47,886 nt of DNA from contig CALHBL010000128.1 in NCBI GenBank assembly GCA_937930825.1, positions 1 to 47,886 of the forward strand, written 5' to 3'. A program made the translations under genes and the position numbers. The notes under the pieces are model-generated. The model saw only the letters and a program-made list of their open reading frames with translations. It did not search any database and was not told the origin of the DNA. The stretch is from an uncultured Bacteriovoracaceae bacterium. GTDB taxonomy: Bacteria; Bdellovibrionota; Bacteriovoracia; Bacteriovoracales; Bacteriovoracaceae. Below, one piece after another: positions 10,883-18,605 of the stretch (positions are counted from its first letter, which is position 1; the number at the start of each line of letters is the position of its first letter).

Positions 10883-10909
10883 GCTTCCCTGTTTTAAAAG
10901 ACTCGAAAT

Positions 10910-12037
10910 TTATTGAAAGAGGTCTTTTACTTTATCGAAGAAACCTCTGCTCATGGGGTTACTCTTATCATTACTTTCTAACTCTCCGAGTCTTTTAATC
11001 AAATCTCTTTGCTCAGAAGAAAGCTTCGTAGGTGTTTCGACATGAATCGTCAAAATAAGATCACCTTGCCCATAAGCTCCTAGCCTTTGGATGCCCTTTC
11101 CTTTTAGCCTCATTTTCCTACCTGACTGTGCTCCGTCGGGAATTGTGACCGACACCTTGCCATCTAGGGTTGGTACTTCTATCTCATCACCTAGGGCCGC
11201 CTGTGAAAAACTAATAGGGACAGTGCAGTGAATATTAAAGCCCTCTCGCTCAAAAATAGAATGATCCAAGACATTTATTACGACATAGAGGTCACCACTT
11301 GGGGCTCCCATACTACCCGCGTCTCCTTCACCAGAGAGTTTTAGTCTTTGATTGGTATCAATTCCCACCGGTACTTTTACGGCAAGATCTACTTTCTTCT
11401 TCTGCCTACCTTGACCAGAGCAACTACCACAAGGGTCAGTGATCATTTGGCCACTTCCCTGACACTTTGGACAAGCGGTAGCAACAGTGAAGAAGCCTTG
11501 CTGACGCCTAACTTCCCCCATACCCTGGCACATATCACAAGAAGCAGGCTTGCTTCCTGATTTTGTGCCAGCTCCCTTGCAGGGTACGCAATCAGCATAG
11601 CGAGTAAGAGAGATTGTCTTCTCAGCACCAAATGCTGCTTCTTCAAATGAAACATCTAAAGTCATTTGTAGGTCATTTCCTGGGGTACCACGATAGCGTC
11701 TTCTGCCACCACCACGTCTTCCTCCACCAAGGATGTCTCCAAAGATATCGCCAAACATATCGCCTAGATCACCAAAGTCTCCAGCGCCGCCTCCACCAAA
11801 GCCAGCTTGGCCATCGACACCTGCATGACCAAACTGATCATAGCGAGACTTCTTACCTTCATCGAGGAGAACCTCAGCAGCTTCAGAAGCTTCTTTAAAC
11901 TTAGCTTCGGCTTCTGGATTATCAGGGTTCTTATCCGGATGATATTTAAGGGCCAACTTTCTGTAAGCCTTTTTAATTTCATCTTTAGCGGCCCCACGTT
12001 GCAGACCAAGAATCTCGTAATAATCTCTTTTACTCAT
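10910..12037 (-). CDS. dnaJ: Chaperone protein DnaJ (Hsp40)
   Basis: The 375-residue protein is a full type I DnaJ, the co-chaperone that delivers substrates to DnaK and stimulates its ATPase. The J domain has the HPD tripeptide at residues 33-35; a Gly/Phe-rich linker with '[11 protein letters not shown]' follows; then four zinc-binding CxxCxGxG repeats at about 150-212 ('CVPCKGAG', 'CDMCQGMG', 'CPKCQGSG', 'CGSCSGQG'), and the C-terminal substrate-binding barrels. AGGA lies 7 bases before the ATG. It follows dnaK, but a terminator-like hairpin (12104-12133) and an 11-bp dyad (12052-12081) lie between them, so its expression may be set separately. Confidence 0.97.
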
Positions 12038-12051
12038 ATCGCTATCCTGTT

Positions 12052-12081
12052 TGAGTTTTCAAGACAAGAGTTGAAAACTCA
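12052..12081. promoter_or_regulatory. 11-bp inverted repeat just upstream of dnaJ
   Basis: TGAGTTTTCAA (12052-12062) and TTGAAAACTCA (12071-12081) are exact reverse complements around an 8-base spacer, ending 14 bases before the dnaJ start. It does not cover the ribosome site. It could be an operator or an RNA hairpin; part of it is shared with the nagZ upstream region. It is not the CIRCE element. Confidence 0.5.
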
Positions 12082-12103
12082 CTAAACCTTATGTGGCTTG
12101 CCT

Positions 12104-12133
12104 AAAATAAGTAAGGGAGGACCCAGTCCTCCC
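12104..12133 (-). terminator. Terminator-like hairpin between dnaK and dnaJ
   Basis: On the minus strand GGGAGGAC pairs with GTCCTCCC (12115-12122 with 12126-12133) around a 3-base loop and is followed by TTACTTATTTT. The strong stem and moderate T-run suggest partial termination after dnaK. Confidence 0.7.
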
Positions 12134-12158
12134 CTACTCTTTAAGTCATTAATAGTTT

Positions 12159-14072
12159 TTAAACTTCTTTAAAGTCTGCGTCTACAACATCTTCATCTGC
12201 ATTATTAGCTTGAGCTCCAGGATTTGGAGCACCGCCAGCTTCAGGACCAGGCTGGCCTTCAGCTCCACCGGCTTGATACATCTCAGTGGCCACTTTATGA
12301 GTAACAGTTTGGAGTGCTTCAGAAGCTGCCTTAAGTTCGTCGAGAACTTCGGACTCAAGCTTAGTTTTAGCTTCGGTTACTGCTGCTTCAACTTCAGCTT
12401 TAGATGCATCAGAGATTTTACCCTCATCATCTTTAATCATTTTCTCAGCAGATAAGATCATTGCATCGAGGCTATTTCTTGTATCGATAACTTCTCTTCT
12501 CTTTTGATCTTCTTCTTTATTTTCCTCAGCTTCTCTTACCATTCTTTCAACTTCTTCATCTGAAAGACCTGAGCCGCCAGTAATCTTAATTTCTTGAGAC
12601 TTACCAGTTGCTTTATCAGCTGCAGAAACATTCACGATTCCATTTGCATCGATATCAAAAGTAACTTCAATTTGAGGAACACCACGTGGAGCTGGAGAAA
12701 TCCCTGTAAGGTCGAATTTACCAAGCGCCTTATTATCTTTAGAGAATTCTCTTTCTCCTTGAAGGACGTGAATACTAACAGCTGGCTGGTTATCTGCGGC
12801 AGTTGAGAAAACCTGAGATTTCTTTGTAGGAATCGTCGTGTTCTTCTCGATAATCTTTGTCATGACGCCACCAAGTGTTTCAATACCAAGAGAAAGAGGT
12901 GTTACATCTAGAAGAAGAACATCTTTAACATCTCCAGCAAGGACACCACCTTGAATGGCCGCACCAGCAGCAACAACTTCGTCAGGGTTAACGCCTTTAG
13001 ATGGCTCTTTTCCAAAAATTTCTTTCACTCTTTCCTGTACTGCAGGAATACGAGTTGAACCACCAACAAGGATAATTTCATCAATCTCATTCTTGGCTAG
13101 ACCTGAATCACTAATAGCTGTTTCACAAGGAACTGATAAGGCCTTGATATGATCAGCAATAAGAGACTCAAACTTTGCTCTACTTAAGTTTATGTTTAAG
13201 TGTTTCGGTCCAGACTGATCAGCAGTGATGAACGGAAGGTTAATATCTGTACTCGTTGTATTCGAAAGCTCATGCTTGGCTTTTTCAGCAGCTTCTTTCA
13301 ATCTTTGAAGCGCCATTTGATCAGATCTTAAGTCGATCCCTTCTTGTGACTTAAACTCATCTGCCAAGAAGTTGATAATATTTTCATCGAAGTTTTCACC
13401 ACCAAGAAAAGTATCACCGTTAGTTGCTTTAACTTCAAATACACCATCACTAGTAATTTCTAGAATTGAAATATCAAAAGTACCACCACCAAGATCAAAG
13501 ACTGCGATATTCTTATCTTGCTTAGTCTCAAGGCCGTAGGCCAGCGCTGCAGCAGTTGGCTCATTTACAATTCTCTTTACTTCAAGTCCTGCAATTCGGC
13601 CCGCATCTTTTGTTGCCTGCCTTTGAGCATCGTTAAAATAAGCAGGAACTGTAATAACAGCTTCACTCACAGTTTCACCTAGGTAGTCTTCTGCAGCTTG
13701 CTTCATTTTTTGAAGAACTTTTGCAGAGATCTCCTGAGGAGACATCTCTTTACCATCTACTTTTACCCAAGCATCGCCATTCTTATTGGCGAAGATTTCA
13801 AAAGGAGCAACTTTTGCAAATTGCGCTGCTTCTGGTGTCGAAAATTTACGACCAATCAATCTCTTAATTCCGTAAAGTGTTTTACTTGGATTAGTAACTG
13901 CTTGCCTCTTAGCAACCTGACCAACAAGGGCTTCCCCGTCTTTACCAAATCCAATCACAGAGGGAGTCGTATTATGCCCTTCTGCGTTTGCTATAATTTT
14001 ATACTTTCCATTTTCAAGAACAGCTACACATGAGTTAGTTGTCCCTAAGTCAATTCCAATAATTTTTCCCAT
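12159..14072 (-). CDS. dnaK: Chaperone protein DnaK (Hsp70)
   Basis: This 637-residue protein is a standard DnaK, the ATP-driven cytoplasmic chaperone. The nucleotide-binding domain begins '[17 protein letters not shown]' and includes '[16 protein letters not shown]' and '[15 protein letters not shown]'; the interdomain linker '[16 protein letters not shown]' follows; the helical lid ends in a Gly/Pro/Ala-rich tail closing with the conserved acidic '[12 protein letters not shown]'. AGGAG lies shortly before the ATG. It sits between grpE and dnaJ in the usual order grpE-dnaK-dnaJ, though hrcA is not upstream. Confidence 0.98.
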
Positions 14073-14086
14073 TATATTCTCCTTAA

Positions 14087-14677
14087 TTAACCATTATTTG
14101 CAATTATTACTTTTGCTGCTCTCAAGAGCCTTCCATTTAAAGAATAGCCTGGCTGAAAGACTTGTATTATTTCTTGATCTTCCTTCCCTTCTGCTGGCTG
14201 TTGGGCCATTGCTTCGTGAAGATTTGGATCAAATGTTTTTCCTAATGCTTCTACTTTCTCTAAACCACTACTCTTTAAAACATCTAGAAATTGTTTTCGA
14301 ACCATATCGATTCCAACAAATATATTTTTTACTTTTTCCTCTTCATCATTAGCTATCGCATCAACAGTTCTATCCAAGTTATCAACGACCTCTATAAGGT
14401 TTGATAAGACTTTCTCATTACCGTACTTAAGGAGGTTTTCTTTTTCTCTTTCACTACGTTTCTTGAAGTTTTCCATTTCAGCAGCAAGGTAGAAGAACTT
14501 TGCCTTATAATCTTCTTCCTCTTTCTTTTCACTTTCTTTAGCTGAATTGAGTTCTTCAACATTTGAAGTCTCCTCATCTGACTGAACTTCTTCAGCAGCC
14601 GCAGATTTAACCTCTTCAACAATCTCTGGCTCAATAACTTTTTCTTTCGCCTTTTCCTTAACTTTTTCTTGTGTCAT
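14087..14677 (-). CDS. grpE: Nucleotide exchange factor GrpE
   Basis: The product (196 residues from this start) is GrpE, which releases ADP from DnaK. The first 60 residues are a low-complexity Glu/Lys-rich extension; the long coiled coil follows ('[19 protein letters not shown]'); the C-terminal beta domain contains '[16 protein letters not shown]' and '[18 protein letters not shown]'. I chose the ATG at 14677 with GAGG eight bases upstream, rather than the TTG at 14698. The gene is first in the grpE-dnaK-dnaJ run. Upstream I see no CIRCE element; a TTGACA hexamer (minus strand, 14738-14743) is a possible -35 but its -10 partner is poor. Confidence 0.93.
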
Positions 14678-14796
14678 TCGTTCAACCTCTGAGTGCAATT
14701 CTTTTCAACACTTCCAAGATGGTATGCTCCCCAATTTTGTCAACGGTACTAATTAAATTAACTTACACCTATGATCTAAGTTACTGATATTAAATG

Positions 14797-15903
14797 CTAA
14801 AGATGCATTAAGAGACGATCAATAAGCCCATCGAGAACTAGCATTCCCTTTGAGCTTAAATAAAATTCATTAAAGTCACCTCTTCCTAGCCCATTATTCA
14901 CCCAATCTCTCAAGACTGGACTTACTGCATCATCCTTTCCTGGAAAAAGGTCCTCAGGCTTAAAGCCTCTATTTGTTCTCATGCTCATATAAAGAGATTC
15001 CAGCTGAAACTGCTCATGAGTTAATTTTTCAATTTCTAACTCTGCTCCTTTTGGCTTCCATTTATAGCGAAGCTTCTCTTCACTTAAGAGGCCAACAGCA
15101 CTGGGCCCCAGGGCCCCAACACTTTCACTCTTCCAATAACTTAAATTATGTTCTGACTCAAAACCGTTCTTTGCGAAGTTTGAAACTTCATAGTGAGAGT
15201 AGCCAAGATTTGATAAGAAATTTGCAACTCCTAAGAACTCTTCCTCCAAGAAATTTTCATCTGGCAGCTCACCCTTGAATTTATAATTGCTTTTAGCAGT
15301 TAGAATATAGAGGCTTATATGGTTTGGATTGAAGGCCAAGATTTCTTCAAGTTCCTTTAAGACTGTTCTCTTCATAGTCTTAGACCTTGGAAGGCCAAGC
15401 ATAAAGTCTACTGAGAAGTTATACTGATGTTTATTGAAGTAGGTTAGGGTCTCTAAAACATCTTCAACTGAATGAACTCTATCCAAAAGTTTTAAATAGT
15501 CAGTCCTTAAGGATTGAACGCCTAAGGAATAGCGATTGATGCCAAAATCCTTCCATGCTTCTATTCCCTCGTCATCCCAAGTGCCAGGATTTACTTCTAA
15601 AGTAAACTCACCTTCACTACTTAAGCTGATTCCTCTTTTACTGAACTGATTTTTTAAAAATGTTGCTCCTCGCTCTCCCCATAAAGAAGGAGTCCCCCCG
15701 CCAATATAGAGAGTTCTAAGCTCACTCATTTCAAGATTATTTTGCAAGAGAAGACCTTGGTGCTTATCGAGCATCATTTCAAACTGCTTCTCGAATAAAG
15801 TAAATTCACTCGATGATTGAGGTACTTTCTTATAGAAGTCGCAGTAGTTACAAAGGTGCCTACAAAAAGGAAAGTGGATATAGAGAGATTCTATTTTATT
15901 TAT
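14797..15903 (-). CDS. hemW: Heme chaperone HemW (radical SAM), apparent AUA start
   Basis: The frame encodes a HemW-type radical SAM protein: 'YIHFPFCRHLCNYCDF' carries the CxxxCxxC iron-sulfur motif, without the fourth Cys of the true oxidase HemN; 'LYIGGGTPSLW' follows, and the radical SAM core with 'SLGVQSL' and 'VDFMLGLP'. HemW handles heme insertion in the cytoplasm. The first ATG in frame (15777) would remove the cluster motif. Upstream of it the frame stays open to a TGA at 15925-15927 with no ATG, GTG or TTG; AGGAG (15910-15914) lies six bases before an ATA at 15901-15903. I therefore place the start there, giving 368 residues, normal for the family. An error in the sequence is the main alternative. 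Confidence 0.85.
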   Translation of the reverse strand: MNKIESLYIHFPFCRHLCNYCDFYKKVPQSSSEFTLFEKQFEMMLDKHQGLLLQNNLEMSELRTLYIGGGTPSLWGERGATFLKNQFSKRGISLSSEGEFTLEVNPGTWDDEGIEAWKDFGINRYSLGVQSLRTDYLKLLDRVHSVEDVLETLTYFNKHQYNFSVDFMLGLPRSKTMKRTVLKELEEILAFNPNHISLYILTAKSNYKFKGELPDENFLEEEFLGVANFLSNLGYSHYEVSNFAKNGFESEHNLSYWKSESVGALGPSAVGLLSEEKLRYKWKPKGAELEIEKLTHEQFQLESLYMSMRTNRGFKPEDLFPGKDDAVSPVLRDWVNNGLGRGDFNEFYLSSKGMLVLDGLIDRLLMHL

Positions 15904-15963
15904 ATTCCGCTCCTGGAAAGGAATTCAAGTATTAATTACTAGGTTTACTCACAGTCTTCCGTT

Positions 15964-15969
15964 TATAAT
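15964..15969 (+). promoter_or_regulatory. Candidate -10 box for the M16 peptidase gene
   Basis: A perfect TATAAT lies 48 bases upstream of the ATG at 16017. A matching -35 at normal spacing is not clear (TTTACT at 15944-15949 is only 14 bases away). GTTTAT (15961-15966) and ATAAAC (15980-15985) form a dyad around it, which might be an operator. Confidence 0.4.
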
Positions 15970-16016
15970 AAGTGAGGCCATAAACCCAATAAATTCATAG
16001 AAACAAAAGAGGATTC

Positions 16017-18605
16017 ATGCAGCACGAGCTCATTAAGCTTAATAACAACTTACAAACCTTATTTGTCGATGCTCCTGGAAGCACAGCAGCAACAGTTCAA
16101 ATCTGGTTTCGTGCAGGCTCAGCGCTTGAAAAGAAATCCAATCAAGGCATTGCTCACTTTCTAGAGCATATGTTCTTTAAAGGCACGCCAACAAGGCCTG
16201 GAAGTGCTATTGCCCATGAGGTTGAAAGCTTCGGCGGGGAAATCAATGCCTTCACAAGCTTTGACTATACTTGTTATTATATCAATACTCCCAATAACCA
16301 CCTCAATAAAACAACTGAGATTCTCTTGGATATGGTTTCAAACCCTGAGTTTAAGCAAGAAGATCTTATTCCAGAAAGAGGTGTTGTATTCGAAGAATTT
16401 AGAAGGTCGGTTGATAACCCCAATCAATACGCCTTTCATAAACTCCAAAAGTCTTCTTTTACTGGAGGTTATGCCCACCCTATTCTTGGTACTGAAGAGA
16501 ATATCCTCGCTTTTTCTCGTGAGCAACTTAAAGACTTTAGAGAGAATTTCTATAATTTAAGTAACGCTCTCCTCGTTGTAGCAGGGGATATAAAGAATCT
16601 TGAGAAAACGAAGAAAGTCATTGAAGCCTATAAACTTCCCGAAGGGCCGCAGTCCGATTTCCCGGCCTTTAAACTTAAGAGCAAGAGCAGTGCAGACTTC
16701 CATGAGAAAGACACGCACATGGTTCAACTCTCTCTTTGCTTTCAAGCGCCTAAATTTGTGGATTCTAATGCTGCTTCAGAAGACCTGGCCATCAATTGCC
16801 TTGGTCATGGTGAGTCCTCAAAGTTATACCAATCTCTAGTCGCTGAGACTTCTCTTGCAACAAGCTGCGGCTCATCCACAATGTTTATGAATAAAGGGGG
16901 ACTTCATTATATAAAAGTCCTCTGCCCGGAAGAGAGCATAGAGAAAGTCTTCAAAAAATTAGAGAGTGTCATACTAGAGATAGCCAAAGACGGCATTAGC
17001 GAAAAAGAAATTCAAAAAATAAAGAATCAATATATCGCTTCTAAAGTTTACGATATGGAATCTATTGAGTCATACGCCTTTTCAATGGGGCATAGTTTTG
17101 CTTCTACTGGCGATATAGGCAGTGAAGATGCCTTCATTCAGAAAATTAAGTCTACAAGTGTTGAGCAAGTCAATGAGAGCTTAAGAGATATTTTTAAGCG
17201 CTCAATGCACCTTAGTCTGCAAACGCCACTTGGAAAACAAAGCCCAAAAATCAAAAGTCTTACTAAGAAATTTCAGACCGATCTTCAAAAAAAGATCGCT
17301 GCTCTTAAAGACCCTATCGCTCACAAGTATAAAGTCACTAAATCCAAAGTTGATACTCAGGTCGAGCTTCTAAGCATACGGCCCGGAGTTAAGCTCATTT
17401 ACCGTCATAACCCTATGAATCCAACCTTTGTTCTTCATGCCTATTTAAAAGGTGGAATCACTGAAGAAACTGATAAGACAAATGGCCTCTACCATTTAAT
17501 CAGCTCAACGATTAATAAAGGCTATGGGAAAATGGCCTATAAAGATTTAAAGACTGAGCTTGATAATCTCTCCGCTTCTTTATCCGCTTTTTCAGGGAAG
17601 AACGCCTATGGCCTTACAATGCATGGTCAAAGCGAACACTTTACAACCCTCGCTGATCATTTCTGCGGAACGCTTCTGCGGCCTAGTTTCAAAGGCGAGC
17701 ACCTAAAGCATGAGAAAGAAATTGCCATGCGTATTCTTAAGAATCATGAAAAAGACCCCATAAAGAATTGCTTTAGAGAAGTAGGCTCTATTCTATTTAA
17801 CGGCCACCCCTACGCAAGGTCTGTTCTTGGTAATCAGAAAACTATTAAAAGTCTAACTGGTAAGTTTATTAAAGATACTCATCAAAGCAATTTGAAGAAT
17901 AAGGAAATCTTACTTACCTACTGCGGTGATAAGAGTTTAAAGGAAGTTCTGAATCACCTTGAGCCCCTTCTCTTTAGCCAATTAAAAGCGAGAAAGGTAA
18001 AGGCCCCTAAGAAAGGTAAAGTTAGTCCAAAAAGAGGAGTAAAAACATTTATACCTTTTGATCGGGAGCAAACTCAAATTTTCACTGGTATTCCAACTCA
18101 CCCTCTAGGGCATAAAGATAATATGGCCCTCAAAATTATTACGACTCATCTCTCGGGCCAAAGCTCTGAGCTCTTCGTTGAAGTAAGGGATAAGCAGGGT
18201 CTTTGCTATACAGCGCAGCCTATTCATTTCTCCGCCCTTGAAGCTGGTTACTGGGGCATCTATATGGCCAGTGGGCATGACAAGGTTGGCCCGGCGTTAA
18301 AAGCAATTGAGAAAATTATAGAAAGTATTAAAACTAAAGGTTTAAAGAGATCTGACTTTCTAAGAGTTAAGAAAATGATTGATGGCCAAAGCCTTCTAAA
18401 TATTCAAACTAATGATGACTATGCCAATATCTACTCTGTAACGACTCTGCAAGGGCAAGACCTAGACTTCTACTACAATAGCAACTCTGCAGTAGAGGAA
18501 CTTAGCTATGAAGATTTTCTGAAAACTATTAAGAGAGTATTTGCTGGGAAGTGGTCTTCTGTGATCGTTGGTCAGTCATCACCCGAAGGATTTAAATCAA
18601 AATAA
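16017..18605 (+). CDS. M16 family zinc metallopeptidase, two M16 domains
   Basis: This 862-residue protein has two tandem M16 (pitrilysin/insulinase-type) domains. The N-terminal one is catalytic: 'GIAHFLEHMFFKGT' carries the inverted zinc motif HxxEH (His47, Glu50, His51), and 'GVVFEEFRR' supplies the downstream glutamate ligand. The second half ('SIRPGVKLIYRHNPMNPTFVLHAYLKGG' region, about 445-700, and a later M16 C-like lobe) lacks the motif, as expected for the non-catalytic half of the clamshell. No signal peptide is visible, so it probably acts in the cytoplasm on short peptides, for example degraded signal or prey-derived peptides; substrate is unknown. AGAGGA precedes the ATG. It stands alone on the plus strand with its own terminator. 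Confidence 0.93.
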   Translation: MQHELIKLNNNLQTLFVDAPGSTAATVQIWFRAGSALEKKSNQGIAHFLEHMFFKGTPTRPGSAIAHEVESFGGEINAFTSFDYTCYYINTPNNHLNKTTEILLDMVSNPEFKQEDLIPERGVVFEEFRRSVDNPNQYAFHKLQKSSFTGGYAHPILGTEENILAFSREQLKDFRENFYNLSNALLVVAGDIKNLEKTKKVIEAYKLPEGPQSDFPAFKLKSKSSADFHEKDTHMVQLSLCFQAPKFVDSNAASEDLAINCLGHGESSKLYQSLVAETSLATSCGSSTMFMNKGGLHYIKVLCPEESIEKVFKKLESVILEIAKDGISEKEIQKIKNQYIASKVYDMESIESYAFSMGHSFASTGDIGSEDAFIQKIKSTSVEQVNESLRDIFKRSMHLSLQTPLGKQSPKIKSLTKKFQTDLQKKIAALKDPIAHKYKVTKSKVDTQVELLSIRPGVKLIYRHNPMNPTFVLHAYLKGGITEETDKTNGLYHLISSTINKGYGKMAYKDLKTELDNLSASLSAFSGKNAYGLTMHGQSEHFTTLADHFCGTLLRPSFKGEHLKHEKEIAMRILKNHEKDPIKNCFREVGSILFNGHPYARSVLGNQKTIKSLTGKFIKDTHQSNLKNKEILLTYCGDKSLKEVLNHLEPLLFSQLKARKVKAPKKGKVSPKRGVKTFIPFDREQTQIFTGIPTHPLGHKDNMALKIITTHLSGQSSELFVEVRDKQGLCYTAQPIHFSALEAGYWGIYMASGHDKVGPALKAIEKIIESIKTKGLKRSDFLRVKKMIDGQSLLNIQTNDDYANIYSVTTLQGQDLDFYYNSNSAVEELSYEDFLKTIKRVFAGKWSSVIVGQSSPEGFKSK

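Follow-up and report, generated by a model that had tools for sequence, protein, structure and literature searches.

The infC gene, which encodes IF3, starts at AUU in Escherichia coli, AUC in Streptomyces and AUA in Staphylococcus aureus. Natural genes with AUA, AUU or AUC starts other than infC are, to our knowledge, very few. Genes with non-canonical starts that come closest to the locus described here include: (i) pcnB of E. coli, which starts at AUU (Binns and Masters 2002, cited in PMC13009471), (ii) ccpN (AUA) and cvfC1 (AUU) of Staphylococcus, which give a reporter yield of ~10% of AUG in poor medium (PMC13009471), and (iii) sigR of Streptomyces, which has a GTC start that is repressed by IF3 (PMC5472188). 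AUA and AUU starts of S. aureus support ~10% of the expression obtained with AUG (PMC13009471). A literature search returned no paper connecting hemW with AUA start codons.

The hemW locus examined here is from an uncultured Bacteriovoracaceae bacterium and lies in a window of 47,886 nucleotides, the whole stretch of DNA that was analysed (contig CALHBL010000128.1 of assembly GCA_937930825.1). The features of the locus are:

12159..14072, minus strand: dnaK, with an ordinary ATG start
14087..14677, minus strand: grpE, the next gene downstream of hemW, with an ATG start after AGAGG
14797..15903, minus strand: proposed hemW coding sequence, 368 codons counted from the ATA
15133..15150, minus strand: HNLSYW, the HNxxYW motif of the hemW product
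15775..15777, minus strand: first in-frame ATG of hemW, too late for the start
15841..15864, minus strand: codons of the CxxxCxxC iron-sulfur motif
15901..15903, minus strand: proposed AUA start codon, 13 codons ahead of the first Cys
15910..15914, minus strand: Shine-Dalgarno AGGAG, 6 nt from the ATA (spacer CGGAAT)
15925..15927, minus strand: upstream in-frame TGA
15961..15970, minus strand: candidate -10 region TATTATAAAC, picked by eye

Read along the minus strand, the frame is TGA (15927-15925) ATT CCT TTC CAG GAG CGG AAT ATA (15903-15901) and continues from the ATA with AAT AAA ATA GAA TCT CTC TAT ATC CAC TTT CCT TTT TGT (15864-15862). The first-pass annotation, which had proposed the AUA start, described a CxxxCxxC motif in frame upstream of the first ATG, an interval between the in-frame TGA and this motif that is free of ATG, GTG and TTG, and an AGGAG placed six bases before the ATA; direct reading of the frame confirms all three points, and every coordinate given, base for base. 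Gene callers restricted to ATG, GTG and TTG would probably put the start inside hemW and remove the iron-sulfur site.

The predicted 368-residue product is best named HemW, as a divergent relative, since TIGR00539 (HemW) is its best NCBIfam match (196.3 bits) and leads the next family by 35 bits but does not reach the curated cut-off of 205.4 bits. Radical_SAM is the single Pfam domain of the product. HemW proteins are recognized by a CxxxCxxC motif that lacks the fourth cysteine, together with HNxxYW (PMC11442138, PMC10320005). The product carries CRHLCNYCDF, a CxxxCxxC motif with no counterpart of the fourth Cys of HemN, as well as HNLSYW, and the earlier assignment of the gene as hemW is upheld. 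The gene directly precedes grpE, dnaK and dnaJ, which are read in the same direction, and is divergent from an M16 peptidase gene; this arrangement, at window positions 10900-18605, recurs in most of the family's long loci. Strings similar to the putative -10 region are present at a comparable distance in three genomes of the genus (G001, G002 and G003), while a consensus promoter scan gave no match at 15961-15970. A search of positions 14000-17000 against Rfam returned no matches and, thus, no known riboswitch, and single-sequence folding revealed no obvious structure shared around the hemW starts.

The Bacteriovoracaceae are related to predatory bacteria, whose prey is other bacteria. Of 129 genomes of this family, 124 yielded hemW or a relative, and 120 complete loci were analysed; a contig scan with an alignment as query recovered 80 named loci, and a scan with a single hemW protein recovered none. 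The nearest genomes are metagenome assemblies of Bacteriovoracaceae and Halobacteriovoraceae that are marine or estuarine, going by isolate names. The hemW start of the family is mostly ATG, with TTG or GTG also frequent, and the modal ATG is 13 codons before the first Cys (40 of the 86 ATGs counted). The ATA at 15901-15903 coincides with this modal position. Only six of the 120 complete loci have no canonical start of any kind before the motif: the present locus, G001, G002, G004, G012 and G108. Four of these six belong to the genus of the present sequence, while the two outside it have ATT at position 12 (G012) and CTG at position 14 (G108), counted in codons before the first Cys. In another genus, the ATA at position 13 of G036 has an AGGAG six bases ahead of it, and a TTG is found farther upstream. 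By comparison, the hemW of E. coli starts at ATG, and canonical starts are found in all 20 hemW loci sampled elsewhere in the phylum, outside this family. One further locus (G105) appeared start-less within 25 codons and was rejected as such, as it has a GTG ~35 codons upstream of the first Cys.

Within the genus, which is represented by metagenome assemblies of seven species, position 13 is ATA in the present sequence, G002 and G003, ATT in G001, ATC in G004 and GTC in G005, while G006 has an ATG one codon upstream, at position 14. Shine-Dalgarno matches are at normal spacing before each of the six non-canonical codons: AGGAG (present sequence), AGGA (G002), a reduced GGA core (G003), GAGGT (G001), AAGGA (G004) and AAGGAG (G005). 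The present sequence, G002 and G003 share ATA AAT AAA, with codon similarity that begins at the ATA and not before. A non-canonical start is thus probably used in six of the seven species, judged from these alignments. Four have no canonical alternative, while G003 and G005 are graded as probable only, because canonical codons are also found farther upstream; these in-frame codons (TTG in G003, ATG in G005 and the TTG of G036) have a Shine-Dalgarno site that is absent or weaker. The genus forms a single clade in a quick hemW tree (SH-aLRT 99), in which the present sequence is nearest to G006, G004 groups with G005, and G001 groups with G002 and G003. Protein identity of the genus HemWs to the present sequence is 56-59%. 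Given the single clade and this level of identity, the non-canonical start appears to have been held through long divergence or to have arisen repeatedly, with the codon itself changing, and is best described as a trait of the genus and not of the family.

The codons upstream of the first ATG have the marks of translated sequence. Over 22 codons around the motif, comparison with G002, G003 and G006 gives 11 synonymous and no amino-acid differences, and comparison with G001 gives seven synonymous and again none at the amino-acid level. This pattern points to translation under purifying selection. A start at the ATG of 15777 is thus excluded on evolutionary grounds, as the codons that precede it are constrained at the amino-acid level.

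Start-less genes are rare around hemW and in the genus. Among 11 control gene families in the same loci, all 346 instances have a canonical start close to where one is expected; one further control family, which has a variable N-terminus, includes four doubtful cases. The difference between hemW and the controls has a Fisher p of ~3e-4, or 0.012 when the variable family and its four doubtful cases are counted, values that are indicative only as related species are non-independent draws. The location of the ATA at the modal ATG position is a stronger argument than these p values. In the genus background (818 kb, with 572 instances of genes that have two or more orthologues), loose counts flagged many genes that proved on inspection to have an ordinary start; only hemW and a single signal-peptide gene then remained start-less, once three truncated genes of G006 were set aside. 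ATG is absent near the start in 33% of hemW loci versus 9% for ten control genes, yet some of these controls, such as accC, are as high as hemW, and the leaning to GTG or TTG is thus not peculiar to hemW.

Initiation at ATA, ATT or ATC has a precedent in this family. In nearly all readable loci, infC has one of these codons after a GGAGG-type site, usually with no in-frame ATG, GTG or TTG, and five genus members have ATT. Such initiation is thus normal here for at least one gene. A search of the genome's own assembly found neither infC nor rplT, probably because of an assembly gap.

On the basis of sequence, hemW joins the few genes whose non-canonical starts are conserved (infC, pcnB, sigR and ccpN). 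Similarly to infC, it has a putative AUA/AUU/AUC start with a good Shine-Dalgarno site that is conserved between species. It differs from infC in that infC exerts feedback on itself, whereas HemW is no translation factor and an effect of IF3 would be one-way; furthermore, the hemW trait is at the level of the genus and is not universal. Like sigR of Streptomyces (PMC5472188), hemW belongs to a process other than translation and has a non-canonical start that its relatives retain, and the hemW of G005 apparently shares the GTC codon. The sigR start has been tested experimentally and sets a sigma/anti-sigma ratio, whereas no such partner is known for hemW. The ccpN (AUA) and cvfC1 (AUU) starts of Staphylococcus (PMC13009471) likewise combine conservation with a strong Shine-Dalgarno site, although they were mapped by ribosome profiling and belong to other genes and another phylum. 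Going by the account of pcnB given in PMC13009471, hemW would also resemble this E. coli gene, in which a weak AUU start limits a protein needed in small amounts, a case shown experimentally for another gene and organism.

The use of AUA as the hemW start is well supported. The observations that bear on it are the position of the codon, the Shine-Dalgarno spacing, the recurrence among relatives, the purifying selection before the first ATG and the rarity of such starts among neighbouring genes. The proposal of the first-pass annotation is borne out by the same ATA, with its Shine-Dalgarno site, in G002 and G003 and by other non-canonical codons at this place in three more species. That annotation had named an ATG at the same place in a close relative, combined with a read error, as the finding that would overturn it; the ATG of G006 is instead one codon upstream, and the other members, which are independent assemblies, have no ATG there. 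Although the source is a metagenome assembly in many fragments (443 contigs, completeness of 88%), it is barely credible that the missing start reflects faulty sequencing, misassembly or gene decay: G001, G002 and G004 were assembled independently and also have no canonical start, the ATA recurs at this position in two sister species, and the frame is uninterrupted and evolves under purifying selection. Initiation at another in-frame non-canonical codon nearby (the ATT at 15922-15924, the ATA at 15892-15894, or the ACG before the ATA of G002 and G003) is improbable. These codons are in frame, and the ACG of G002 is 4 nt after AGGA, but the ATT at 15922 has no real Shine-Dalgarno site, the ATA at 15892 is 15 nt from AGGAG, and the ATA at 15901 alone occupies the modal ATG position and recurs in G002 and G003. 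An out-of-frame TTG (15926-15928) opens a frame that overlaps the proposed start and ends 8 nt into hemW, and other overlapping upstream frames are found in some relatives; ribosomes could thus start there and enter hemW by frameshifting or by coupled termination and reinitiation. This route is scarcely to be expected, as the start, frame and end of these ORFs vary between species, G108 has no overlapping ORF, no conserved slippery site was seen, and the AUA has a good Shine-Dalgarno site of its own. Stop read-through is excluded here, as no start codon lies in the interval that separates the two in-frame stops upstream of hemW.

The main rival concerns the meaning of the weak start and accepts the AUA itself: the codon would have drifted from ATG and been tolerated since little HemW is needed, with neither selection nor IF3 control. 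The ATG of G006 is in keeping with such drift, and a family in which starts are mostly ATG and hemW often uses TTG or GTG is as expected under relaxed demand. Set against it, six of the seven species have a non-canonical codon despite their long divergence, even though a single mutation would turn ATA, ATT or ATC into ATG; the codon switches among non-canonical kinds, and the neighbouring genes have not drifted in this way. Functionless drift is, thus, a serious contender but a doubtful one. The preferred reading, to which a probability of roughly 0.8 is assigned, is that hemW is a further gene with a weak start discriminated by IF3, which the genus may have kept for low or IF3-dependent expression. 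The presence of non-canonical codons at a fixed position in six of seven species, despite protein identities of 56-59%, suggests that the weak start is selected. It is not indispensable, as G006, the nearest neighbour on the tree, uses ATG.

In the mechanism proposed for this selected weak start, the AGGAG six bases upstream would place the AUA of 15901-15903 in the ribosomal P site, where the ordinary initiator tRNA would read it with a third-base mismatch. IF3 would destabilize these initiation complexes, such that the rate of HemW synthesis would be a fraction of that from AUG and would rise when IF3 activity drops and drop when it rises, in the manner of infC. Selection would keep the weak start, the simplest purpose being to limit the amount of a heme-binding chaperone. 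We infer the IF3 sensitivity, the low yield and the purpose by analogy, and the suggestion of the first-pass annotation that the AUA limits hemW expression is plausible, as it matches the characterized AUA and AUU starts. An unlikely extension is that hemW translation in the genus is coupled to IF3, in which case HemW would rise along with IF3 when IF3 falls or is impaired. Such coupling would link heme delivery to initiation fidelity, and selection would keep any non-canonical codon while its identity drifts. A heme-trafficking gene that keeps a weak start across a deeply diverged genus, with a codon that varies between species, is in effect an experiment of nature on how weak initiation is selected and bears on the reach of IF3 control past its own gene.

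Certain other genes of these genomes have unusual start regions. The hemW of G105 has a probable GTG start, which would give an N-terminal extension of ~20 residues relative to its relatives. Three genes of G006 (G006:C15 near 26033, 119615 and 121623) are apparently truncated or frameshifted versus their orthologues and may be assembly errors or pseudogenes. A gene with a signal-peptide-like N-terminus has a probable CTG start (CCGGAG TAAGTA CTG AAA) in G002 (G002:C23:25439-27370) and G003 (G003:C101:12525-14447), and its G001 orthologue has TTG at the same place.
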